This document shows, one piece after another, positions 60,041-63,771 of a DNA stretch of 64,000 bases. The notes beneath the pieces were generated by a model, which made no database searches, was not told the DNA's origin, and saw only the letters and a list, made by a program, of their open reading frames with translations. This DNA is from Lathyrus oleraceus (Eukaryota; Streptophyta; Magnoliopsida; Fabales; Fabaceae). The first letter of the stretch is position 1. Every line of letters starts with the position of its first letter. Location: NCBI RefSeq assembly GCF_024323335.1, contig NC_066583.1, positions 18,150,665 to 18,214,664 on the forward strand. The letters run 5' to 3'. The translations under genes were made by a program, and so were the position numbers.

Positions 60041-60049
60041 ATCTAACAA

Positions 60050-61369
60050 AAAACCATTCTTTCTCTTCCATTTCTCAATATATTCTGATTGGAATATAAT
60101 GCACCAACACCGCATGTTATCTTCATATTTGGTTAAATTTTGCTAATTTATTGGTTTGTTTGTTTTTTTTAATTGTTTGAGTGTGATTCTCATTCAACCT
60201 ACCAAGTATAAAGTCCTTGAAACTCTTCACAATAGAACTTCATTGATATATTTGAACATTTGGACTCTCATTTTAGTCACACATTGTGACAGAAAAAATA
60301 CAATATGTAACTAGATTGATTATTCAAATAAATATATTAATTAAGTTTGCTTCAATTTAACCAAATAGAATACGATATATACTTAGTAGTCTCTCCATAA
60401 TCTTTGTTTATATTGAACCTATTATAATACTCACATTTTCATGATTGAAAAGTGATAGATATTGGTTCTTTACATAATAGAATTAAGACAATTTATCATA
60501 TTCATTAATACAAACAAAACTACAATACGGGGGATAACACACATAATAACACTAGGATAATTGTTCTAAACTCCTTACAAAGAGGTCTACAAAACTACCT
60601 AAGTTTGAAAGACTAAACTGACGCCAACTCAATTTTTAACATATTAAATTAAGATTTATTTTAAAACACAATTACCTAGTTCCTAGAAACAAGACCTTAA
60701 TATATTATGATTGGACTATCAAAAAATCATTATTTCTTTTCCATTTCTCAATATATTATGATTGGACTATAATGCACCAGCATTGCATGCTATCTTTAGA
60801 TTTGGTTAAATTTTGCTAATTTATTGGTTTGGTTTTTTTCTGAATTGTTTGAGTGTGATTCTCATTCAACCTACTAAGTATAAAGGCCTTGAAACTCTTC
60901 ACAATAGAGCTTCATTGATATATTTGAACATTTGGACTCTCATTTTAGTCACACATTGTGACAGAAAAAACCACAATATGTAATTAGATTGATTATTCAA
61001 ATGAATATATCAATTAAGCTGGTTTCAATTTAACCTAATAGAATATAATATATACTTAGTCTTTCCATAGTCTTTGTTTATATTGAACCTATTATTTGAC
61101 TCGCATTTTCATGATTGAAAAATGATAGATATTGGTTATTTACATAATAGAATTAAGGAAATTTCTCATATTCATTAATACAAACAAAATTACAATACGG
61201 AGGATAACACACATAATAACACTAGGATAATTGTTCTAAACTCCTTACTAAGAGGTCTAACAAACTACCTAAGTTTGAAAGACTAAACTGACGCCAACTC
61301 AATCTTTAACATATTAAATTGAGATTTATTTTAAAACACAATTACCTAGTTCCTAGAAACAAGACCTTA
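60050..61369. repeat. 0.65-kb direct tandem duplication downstream of BURP gene
   Basis: Two copies, about 60050-60699 and 60720-61369 (offset 670-673), run from CCATTTCTCAATATATT to TTCCTAGAAACAAGACCTTA. They differ at several tens of sites, so the duplication is not very recent. The second copy ends about 117 bases from the BURP stop codon. No coding potential. Confidence 0.85.
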
Positions 61370-61480: not shown

Positions 61481-61486
61481 TTTATT
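61481..61486 (-). terminator. AATAAA next to BURP stop codon
   Basis: AATAAA starts at the last base of the TGA stop (61488-61486). It is a possible polyadenylation signal, though unusually close to the stop; other AT-rich signals could serve. Confidence 0.3.
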
Positions 61487-63771
61487 CATTTGGTGGCATG
61501 TGGGGGGCTTGGCACCCATAAGACATGCTTAACAGGGAAGAAATGGCACAATGGACCTTCCCCAGGCTTCATTCCAAGTAGGTCAAATATAAAATGGTTA
61601 GGATTCATGGCAGATGTGTCTAGGTGGCAAATTCCCAAAGCATCCATTATGTCTCCATATTCACCCTTTAGAAGAACTTTGAAGATCTTACTTCCTATGT
61701 CTAGGTAATGGCAATAGTAAAGAGCGTATGGGTAAGGCCTGGGGTGACATGCTACCCATTTAGGAGCATATATATCCTTTGAGATATCCAAAACAGTGTA
61801 GTTCTGCAAAGGTGCACCTGATGTTGTGGGATAGCTAGTCGAGTGAATGTTATAATTAGTCTCGGCACCAATAACACCATGAACAAATTCAAGCATGGAC
61901 TCTAAAGAAGTAGGACAAGCCTTGGTCTCCCCTTTATTGGGTTCAGACTCACATTGATTCATTACATCTATCATGTCTTCACCTTGAGGAGAATCTTTTG
62001 TGAGTGAGAATAGTTGAAGAAGGCTTGGACTTTGTGATTTGGAGACAGGAATTTCGTCAGCTAGTTTTCTTGGCAAGAACGGGGCATATTCTCTAATAGG
62101 AAATTGCAAGGTCATTACATTTCCCACATAAAGATCATCTAGGCTGAAAAAAGCTACCTTGAATGCTTCTGTATGGTCAACTTTTGAAGATAGTTTTCCG
62201 TTCGATTCTTCCAAGTGTTGTCCATTTTTCACGTTGTTCTCTGCATGCGAGTCTTTCAACCAACCATCAAGGTAAGCTTGCTTGGAATTCGGGATGGATT
62301 TTGCAATCTCAACATGACTATCTTTCAACCATCCGTCAAGGTAAACTCGGTTAGAGTTAGGGGAGGAACTATCTTTCTCTGCTCGTGTATCTTTCAACCA
62401 TCCATCAAGGTAAACTTGGTTGGAGTCAAGGGTCGGTTTTGGATTCAATGTCTGAGTATCTTTCAACCATCCATCAAGGTAGACTTGGTTGGAGTTAGGG
62501 TTAGAATTTAATTTTTCGACTCGGGTATCTTTCAACCATCCATCAAGGTAAACTTCGTTGGAGTCAAGGCTGGCTTTTGCTTTCTCAGCTCGGCTATCTT
62601 TCAACCATCCATCAAGGTAAACTTGGTTAGAGTCAGAGTTCAATTTTGTTTTCTCAGCTCGGGTATCTTTCAACCATCCATCAACGTAAACTTGGTTGGA
62701 GTCAGGGGTGGATTTTGCTTTCTCATCTCGAATATCTTTCAGCCATCCATCAAGATAAACTTGCTTAGAGTTAGGGGCAGATTTCTCCTTTTCAACTTGG
62801 GTATCTTTCAACCACCCATCAAGGTAAACTTGTTTAGAGTCAGGGGAGGATTTCTCCTTTTCAACTCTGGTGTCTTTCAACCATCCATCAAGGTAAACTT
62901 GGTTGGAGTCAGGATTGGATTTTGCTTTCTCAGCTCGGGTGTCTTTCAGCCATCCATCAAGATAAACTTGGTCAGAGTCAAGGTTGAATTTTCCTTTCTC
63001 AGATCGAGTATCTTTTAACCACCCATCAAGGTAAACTTGGTTTGAATCAGGGTTGGCTTTGGCTTTCTCAGCTCTGGTATCTTTCAACCACCCATCAAGG
63101 TAAACTTGCTTAGATTCAGGGGAGGGTTTCTCCTTTTCAACTCGGGTATCTTTCAACCATCCATCAAGGTAAACTTGGTTAGAGTCAGGATTGGATTTTT
63201 CTTTCGCAACTCTGGTATCTTTCAACCATCCATCAAGGTAAACTTGGTTTGAATTAGGGTTGGTTTTGGCTTTCTCAGCTCTGGTATCTTTCAACCATCC
63301 ATCAAGGTAAACTTGGTTAGAGTCAGGATTGGATTTTTCTTTCTCGGTTCGGGTATCCTTTAGCCATCCGTCAAGGTAAACTTGGTTGGATTCAGGGTTG
63401 GATTTTTCATTCTCACCTCGAGTATCTTTCAACCATCCATCAAGGTAAACTTGGTTGGAGTCAGGGTTGGCTTTTTCTTTCTCGGCCCGGGTATCTTTCA
63501 ACCATCCATCAAGATAAACTTGATTTGAGTCAGGGTTTACTTTTGCTTTCCCGGTTCGGGTATCTTTCAACCATCCATCAAGGTAAACTTGGTTGGAGTC
63601 AGGGTTGGTTTTTGCTTTCTCACCTCGAGTATCTTTCAACCATCCATCAAGGTAAACTTGGTCGGAGTTAGGGGAGGGTTTTTGGTTCTTCAATGAAGTG
63701 TTTTTGAGCCACCCATCAAGATAAGGCTGATCAATTTGGTTCATTTCTCTTGCAAAGCTTCCATGGTCATT
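61486..63771 (-). CDS. BURP-domain protein with 22 core-like repeats, candidate burpitide precursor/cyclase; main exon
   Basis: This exon encodes 761 residues. It begins at 63771 after a splice acceptor (TTGTATTGTAG), giving NDHGSFARE before the internal Met at 63744, so the true start and signal peptide should lie in an upstream exon outside the window; BURP genes usually have such a short first exon. Counting from that Met: repeats at 6-511, each 23 residues with QVYLDGWLKDT; a short linker; a BURP domain at about 527-752. The domain has FFSLDDLYVGNVM, the paired Cys (598, 610, CPTSLESM) and four CH motifs at 666, 678, 706 and 733, spaced 10, 26 and 25, then W at 743. In burpitide cyclases this domain binds copper and links Trp or Tyr side chains within core peptides of the same chain. 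Secretory-pathway location is expected. A structural cell-wall role, as in other BURP groups, is the alternative. Confidence 0.88.
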   Translation of the reverse strand, partial: NDHGSFAREMNQIDQPYLDGWLKNTSLKNQKPSPNSDQVYLDGWLKDTRGEKAKTNPDSNQVYLDGWLKDTRTGKAKVNPDSNQVYLDGWLKDTRAEKEKANPDSNQVYLDGWLKDTRGENEKSNPESNQVYLDGWLKDTRTEKEKSNPDSNQVYLDGWLKDTRAEKAKTNPNSNQVYLDGWLKDTRVAKEKSNPDSNQVYLDGWLKDTRVEKEKPSPESKQVYLDGWLKDTRAEKAKANPDSNQVYLDGWLKDTRSEKGKFNLDSDQVYLDGWLKDTRAEKAKSNPDSNQVYLDGWLKDTRVEKEKSSPDSKQVYLDGWLKDTQVEKEKSAPNSKQVYLDGWLKDIRDEKAKSTPDSNQVYVDGWLKDTRAEKTKLNSDSNQVYLDGWLKDSRAEKAKASLDSNEVYLDGWLKDTRVEKLNSNPNSNQVYLDGWLKDTQTLNPKPTLDSNQVYLDGWLKDTRAEKDSSSPNSNRVYLDGWLKDSHVEIAKSIPNSKQAYLDGWLKDSHAENNVKNGQHLEESNGKLSSKVDHTEAFKVAFFSLDDLYVGNVMTLQFPIREYAPFLPRKLADEIPVSKSQSPSLLQLFSLTKDSPQGEDMIDVMNQCESEPNKGETKACPTSLESMLEFVHGVIGAETNYNIHSTSYPTTSGAPLQNYTVLDISKDIYAPKWVACHPRPYPYALYYCHYLDIGSKIFKVLLKGEYGDIMDALGICHLDTSAMNPNHFIFDLLGMKPGEGPLCHFFPVKHVLWVPSPPHATK
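62212..63729 (-). repeat. 22 x 69-bp coding repeat (23-aa units) in BURP gene
   Basis: The period is exactly 69 bases with no indel from the first unit (Gln codon at 63729) to the 22nd (Gln codon at 62280). The last unit lacks the usual spacer. Within the motif, Tyr, Asp, Gly, Trp, Leu and Lys of YxDGWLK are invariant in all 22; Gln is kept in 20, Val in 20, and Leu before Asp in 21 (Val once). Exceptions: QPYLDGW in unit 1, EVYLDGW in 18, RVYLDGW in 21, QAYLDGW in 22, YVDGW in 16. The spacer is charged and variable (TRAEKxKxNPDSN). Minus-strand repeats also create open frames on the plus strand at 62215-63018. Confidence 0.96.

Follow-up and report, generated by a model that had tools for sequence, protein, structure and literature searches.

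A pea chromosome 5 gene with 22 repeated YLDGW cores ahead of a BURP domain, a candidate precursor and cyclase of an undescribed burpitide

We describe a gene located at the right edge of a 64-kb window of DNA (the whole stretch that was analysed, 64,000 nucleotides of Lathyrus oleraceus contig NC_066583.1, positions 18,150,665 to 18,214,664; the species, the pea, is also named Pisum sativum); the gene encodes repeated peptide units followed by a BURP domain, and it is the sole BURP gene of the window, as found with tblastn, using its own BURP domain, and with a genome search. The original prediction had placed a candidate precursor gene at 61486..63771, and these coordinates are correct for what is in fact the second exon: a single exon of 761 codons plus stop on the minus strand, which starts with NDHGSFAREMNQIDQPYLDGW and is directly preceded by TTGTAG, a splice-acceptor sequence, while the ATG-started open reading frame that had been listed from position 63744 begins at an internal Met of this exon. 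The start of the gene had been missed, as exon 1 lies outside the window, starting 474 bases past its right edge, at about 64474-64421 if the numbering of the window is continued, with its ATG at G000:C5:18215138. Exon 1 encodes a hydrophobic leader, MTHRVVMFLLPFLLLLLI, followed by VSY in frame at a GTGAGT donor, as is expected there; judged by eye, the leader is a secretory signal peptide, as carried by the precursors of fused burpitides, i.e. those whose cores and BURP domain share one chain. The N-terminal start of the deposited pea protein P0001 is homologous to this frame, and its junction from the leader to NDHGSFAR is the same as in the window gene; with the leader added to exon 2, the whole precursor would comprise about 779 residues.

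Ahead of the BURP domain, the second exon contains 22 tandem units of 23 codons (62212..63729, minus strand), in agreement with the regular 23-residue units that had been predicted; Tandem Repeats Finder gives a period of 69, 20.8 copies and a score of 1658. The units consist of a fixed block, Y(L/V)DGWLK(D/N), and a variable spacer of the type TRAEKxKxNPDSN, so that the Y(L/V)DGW core occurs ahead of the BURP domain in 22 of 22 units, as repeated cores do in fused burpitide precursors. With the usual Gln numbered as position 1, residues Y3, D5, G6, W7, L8 and K9 are identical in all 22 units; position 4 is Leu in 21 units and Val in one, position 10 is Asp in 21 and Asn in one (the residues after Trp reading LKD in 21 units and LKN in one), and Q1 and V2 are each found in 20 of the 22. 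The heptapeptide QVYLDGW, which had been proposed as the conserved unit, is a real repeat core and is exact in 17 of the 22 units, but the stretch that is conserved is YLDGWLKD instead. The first unit (63661..63729, minus strand) has the variant core QPYLDGWLKN and the last unit (62212..62280, minus strand) has the core QAYLDGWLKD. An Asn or Asp residue precedes position 1 in 18 of the 22 units and ends the decapeptide of positions 1 to 10 in all 22. Ten Pfam families besides BURP match the protein, all within the repeats, with scores that in some cases exceed the cut-off (96 bits for Myosin_N, 49 bits for Methyltransf_30), and we take these matches to be repeat-driven artefacts.

The repeats are followed, in the same chain, by the complete BURP domain that had been predicted (PF03181, residues 541-754, located at 61510..62151 on the minus strand): the match scores 216 bits and covers profile positions 2-216 of 216, and the four CH motifs of the copper site, which are also those of the fused burpitide precursors, are present. 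The CH spacings are 10, 26 and 25 in all 8 pea genes examined, in keeping with the published consensus CHX10CHX25-27CHX25-26CH, and the third CH of the window gene is followed by Met.

The window gene belongs to a family. At least 76 BURP matches have been found in the pea genome by the genome search, and the block recurs, together with an open second exon, in seven other genes at 15.9-18.2 Mb of chromosome 5 (L010, L011, L012, L015, L016, L017 and L018); exon 1 has been found in five of these seven as well as in the window gene. The family genes have 14-23 units each by motif, where the motifs require part of the block, so that badly decayed units are missed; two extra units of L016, YHDGW and the last one, YLDGL, were recognized by eye. 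Three deposited pea gene models have fewer units than the genome loci that they most resemble (P0001, 14 versus 20 in L018; P0002, 13 versus 22 in L012; P0004, 9 versus 19 in L011), which may reflect splicing within the repeats, a prediction artefact or, in the case of P0002, an allele; P0002, in which the order of two units is reversed, stems from a different assembly, and P0004 includes a unit that combines two genomic ones.

The comparison of units within the window gene (21 full units) has revealed a strong contrast between the block and the spacer: for Y3-D10, the proportions of nonsynonymous (pN) and synonymous (pS) differences are 0.014 and 0.411, a ratio of 0.033, whereas for the spacer they are 0.248 and 0.464, a ratio of 0.534, and the core ratio reached or exceeded the spacer ratio in 0 of 200 bootstraps; these ratios are descriptive, as the units are subject to unequal exchange and are not independent. 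The core is constrained relative to the spacer, in the same direction, in each of the 8 pea genes. Positions 1-2 appear to vary with little constraint, with a ratio of 0.598 in the window gene and of 1.83 when the 140 unique units of all 8 genes are taken together, the latter based on few synonymous sites. The repeat unit is therefore more than a product of chance, since it has been kept in 8 pea genes (163 units by motif) with silent, but scarcely any replacement, change in Y3-D10.

L013 and L014, at G000 C5:17.22-17.23 Mb, are broken members of the family. L014 shows BURP-domain pieces only, while L013 is a paralog with in-frame stops in which YLDGW is damaged in 5 of the 16 units found, a stop having replaced Trp in three of these, and in which Cys has been lost from the third and fourth CH; its cores and CH motifs decay together, and its sequence appears to show the fate of the block without selection.

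Among the 120 matches listed from two protein searches (one scored the 7,991 candidates that share most words, the other is represented by its best 120 of 160), at least 19 proteins have three or more YxDGW; these include proteins from pea, Lathyrus sativus, Vicia villosa, V. faba, Trifolium pratense, T. repens, Sesbania and Prosopis. In a tree of 139 BURP domains, in which five loci are represented by pairs (L004/L028, L005/L020, L006/L019, L007/L026 and L008/L027), the 26 domains with the YLDGW block form one group with 100/100 support, and legume proteins with PY(I/L)xGY repeats are its neighbours. The 184 units of 19 clade proteins have Gln at position 1 in 117 cases, Asn or Asp before position 1 in 131 and Asn or Asp at position 10 in 181. 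That Y, G and W do not vary across the clade is in part a consequence of the motif used, under which positions 4, 5, 8 and beyond are free to vary. In the T. repens relatives, the block is kept, the unit length varies and many units have no upstream Asn.

The layout of the window gene, with multiple cores fused to a BURP domain as in the lyciumin and moroidin types that the original prediction had invoked, supports a fused (type II) burpitide architecture; neither of the two core patterns, however, is present. The classical lyciumin core (QPxGxxxW) has Gly four positions before Trp, where the pea core has Tyr, its Gly being at minus 1; the moroidin core (L-x-x-W-x-x-H) has His three positions after Trp, where the pea units continue with LKD or LKN. 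The precursors of stephanotic acid-[LV] and moroidin (CcaBURP2, KjaBURP) are alike in being fused, multi-core BURP proteins with Leu three positions before the cross-linked Trp (QLLVW, L2-W5), a spacing that the window gene has with Leu in 21 of 22 units and Val in one; as judged from the published cores, the pea core is set apart by two residues between Gln and Leu, by D-G between Leu and Trp, by the lack of a His for a second ring and by the conserved LKD after the core. Arabipeptin A (ArbA2/ArbB2, core FLWGY) shares the Leu-x-Gly-aromatic arrangement and a bond from Leu to the aromatic residue at i+3, but its aromatic residue is Tyr and its cyclase and precursor are encoded by separate genes; the letters LKD are shared with split precursors, but an obvious counterpart of the essential Phe(-7) of ArbA2 is not seen here. 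AhyBURP and Sali3-2 (legumenin, lyciumin I; 8SY2/8SY3) have a single core at the N-terminal end of the BURP domain, with a Gly4-Trp8 bond, and are 24-30 percent identical in structure alignments; the pea genes that we call USP-type by their resemblance to AhyBURP (L029-L042) are located on a distant branch. The closest relatives among the matches listed are the legume PY(I/L)xGY BURP proteins (soybean P0016, peanut P0047, Trifolium P0049), which have the same frame with Tyr for Trp in the core, and Trp, not Met, after the third CH.

The β subunit of polygalacturonase, PG1beta, also has repeats with an aromatic residue at i+3 ahead of a BURP domain, and the pea relative P0001 bears the name "polygalacturonase 1 beta-like protein 3" at NCBI; despite this name, membership in the PG1beta group is rejected, as four pea PG1beta-type genes with FxxY form a separate 100/100 branch of the BURP tree, and the window repeat is a 23-mer without FxxY, in contrast to the 14-residue FxxY repeat of PG1beta, whose repeat domain is obtained uncut. 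As a kind, genes for fused burpitide precursors with several cores are already known; here the core is new and the clade of genes is large. YLDGW and related core sequences have given no match in open-literature text, which agrees with the earlier remark that the core was not recognised as that of a described peptide; the scope of that search was the open literature, and a prior listing in a subscription supplement is possible. As to expression, the published passages on pea and Lathyrus BURP genes do not tell which gene they concern.

We consider the window gene a well-supported candidate for a combined precursor and cyclase, with a product that is as yet unproven, and we hold it somewhat better than an even chance that it encodes a secreted fused burpitide precursor, whose BURP domain cross-links the cores and from which proteases free small cyclic peptides. 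The anatomy of the gene, the selection on the block, the gene family and the predicted fold are what the analysis shows; the cross-link and its position, the cutting and the free product are inferred. One chain would unite a signal peptide and 22 substrate cores with the copper-dependent cyclase that acts on them; in the secretory pathway, the BURP domain would oxidatively cross-link each core, most likely by a bond from the β carbon of Leu4 to the indole of Trp7, with removal of 2 H; and proteases would cut the unstructured spacers, yielding many copies of a small cyclic peptide based on (Q/x)xYLDGW. The known fused burpitides are cut out of their precursor. The first product may be the QVYLDGWLKD decapeptide, given that Asn or Asp stands before it in 18 and at its end in all of the 22 units. 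Plants have vacuolar proteases that are specific for Asn/Asp, and the flanking of the decapeptide by such residues on both sides would suit cleavage of this kind.

The L4-W7 bond is our best guess for the cross-link, as it follows the i/i+3 pattern of known BURP bonds; in the literature consulted, the characterised bonds are L2-W5 in QLLVW, L2-Y5 in FLWGY and P2-Y5 in LPIIY, together with the G4-W8 (i+4) and Q1-Y6 (i+5) bonds of legumenin and Tyr-Leu bonds of 14-membered rings. Over the proteins with at least four motif hits, the residue three positions before Trp is Leu, Ile or Val in 179 of 182 clade units.

Several observations weigh against this reading. The sister Tyr proteins have Leu, Ile or Val at minus 3 in no more than 360 of their 468 units, and the conserved block extends past Trp to LKD, in contrast to most known cores, which end at the aromatic residue. 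Gln at position 1, a common but not defining feature of fused burpitides, is found in 7 of 44 units of four T. repens proteins (2/13, 1/12, 2/10 and 2/9), so that the Gln-first reading is not general and the ends of a released peptide are unclear. A structural model does not place the last core (unit 22) in the active site, the core having a predicted local distance difference test (pLDDT) score under 50, and in the low-confidence model of the repeat, Gly6-Trp7 is at the tip of a turn, a geometry that speaks neither for nor against an L4-W7 contact. Glutamine cyclotransferase, for which a review reports co-localisation in beet, was searched for as one family (PF05096), with two partial matches, both on C1 and none on C5, where the cluster lies; a co-localised enzyme is rejected for this one family.

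The masses by which the product had been expected to be recognized also call for revision. Pyroglutamate formation from an N-terminal Gln is not safe to predict, as the T. repens orthologs are mostly without this Gln and positions 1-2 are barely constrained. The proposed diagnostic species, pyroGlu-VYLDGW minus 2 H, is ambiguous: its m/z of 861.3777 coincides with that of linear, uncross-linked pyroGlu-PYLDGW from unit 1, because Val minus 2 H equals Pro. A loss of 2 Da is by itself no proof of a released ring, as the repeats of the wall protein PG1beta also carry it; what is obtained of PG1beta from the wall is the middle domain with the repeats, in which every FxxY Phe that was identified is lighter by 2 Da (PMC5313189).

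An alternative that agrees with the preferred reading in all but the bond is possible, though somewhat unlikely: the precursor may form a linkage through the Tyr3 phenol, from the Trp7 indole nitrogen to a backbone or side-chain carbon, as in lyciumins, or two rings. Tyr3 is as fixed as Trp7 (22 of 22 units of the window gene), one of the two bonds of the legumenin core involves Tyr, and Met after the third CH is shared with the Trp-N cyclase AhyBURP and with the pea USP-type genes; on the other hand, the lyciumin-site Gly four positions before Trp is replaced by Tyr, and the i/i+3 pattern favours L4.

We regard it as unlikely that the BURP domain modifies the repeats, by a cross-link or a dehydro-residue, with no excision, in which case the product, like the repeat domain of PG1beta, would be a modified protein of the wall or vacuole. 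The FxxY motif does share its i/i+3 spacing with L4-W7, and the conserved LKD tail and the fixed 23-residue period in pea would equally fit a structural repeat; against this, the tree sets the four pea PG1beta-type genes well apart from the YLDGW clade, the window repeat is without FxxY, and the block is kept in T. repens while the unit length varies, unlike in a fixed structural repeat. A folded repeat domain is also disfavoured, though weakly, by a model based on an 8-row alignment, in which the repeats have a mean pLDDT of 34 and are predicted to be disordered. That the repeats are no substrate at all, but part of a repetitive stress or wall protein whose block binds, for example, pectin or copper unmodified, is very unlikely: modification in the YLDGW clade is so far only inferred, and BURP genes are often described only as stress, wall or seed proteins, but the repeat type tracks the BURP clade, with YLDGW in one clade and PY(I/L)xGY in its neighbours, as would be expected of a substrate and its enzyme, and all 8 pea genes examined retain the four CH motifs.

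A possible determinant of the Trp cores is the residue that follows the third CH. It is Met in 26 of 26 domains of the YLDGW clade, while in the 112 other BURP domains it is Trp in 109 and Phe in three, a correlation that was found post hoc over 138 of the 139 domains (L003 fell out), all from searches seeded with the YLDGW clade. Met is also found in AhyBURP, by alignment, and in 14 of the 14 pea USP-type genes fetched, and in a tree of 45 domains, the change between Trp and Met needs at least two separate events. The correlation has exceptions in L027 and P0065, which have Trp-containing repeats and yet keep Trp, so that the residue is a lead only. A broader proposal, which we consider unlikely, is that pea chromosome 5 and the legume relatives make an undescribed class of Trp-bridged cyclic peptides, in which a tight L4-D5-G6-W7 turn brings Leu4 close to Trp7; that the same i/i+3 oxidation gives rise to stephanotic acid, arabipeptin and elaeagnin as well as to the Phe of the PG1beta repeats that is 2 Da lighter, under a single BURP rule by which an aromatic radical at i+3 attacks residue i, with a bond or a double bond as the outcome; and that the replacement of Trp by Met after the third CH, which took place in two or more separate lineages, helps to admit Trp cores.

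Other BURP loci of pea also have repeats or cores of interest. Nine of the 14 USP-type genes (L029-L031, L033-L036, L041 and L042, at G000 C4, 383.99-388.13 Mb) have cores that resemble those of lyciumins, with the pattern (Q/L)P(F/L)(G/E)xxxW, e.g. QPFGTFVW, QPFGISVW, QPFGFWGW and QPLGTWIW, of which QPFGTFVW and QPFGISVW have given no match in open-literature text. L026 (G000 C7:293.44 Mb) has an open frame of 1,119 residues with many QPSYIYKTADEA-type repeats before the BURP domain, and L027 (G000 C7:294.48 Mb) has Trp-rich NPWLPWGSRE repeats, with Trp where two other Trp-core groups have Met. Within the window, just 3' of the BURP gene, 60043-60699 and 60716-61369 form a tandem duplication, 92 percent identical. 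Direct-repeat pairs that are 99 percent identical and located kilobases apart (16349-18365/22903-24919, 42714-44709/50034-52021 and 9230-10391/15187-16348), some of which flank long open reading frames, look like recent long terminal repeat retrotransposons; in the rest of the window, the long direct repeats and long open reading frames likewise resemble retrotransposons.

If the preferred reading is true, a major food crop would have eight or more genes for a cyclic peptide not yet described, each with 14-23 copies of it, and these peptide genes would be conserved in legumes from Prosopis to pea. The peptide would be a concrete and cheap target for mass spectrometry, which would also test repeat release against wall retention, and the paralogs and relatives would form a natural series from which the residue choice of BURP cyclases may be learned.
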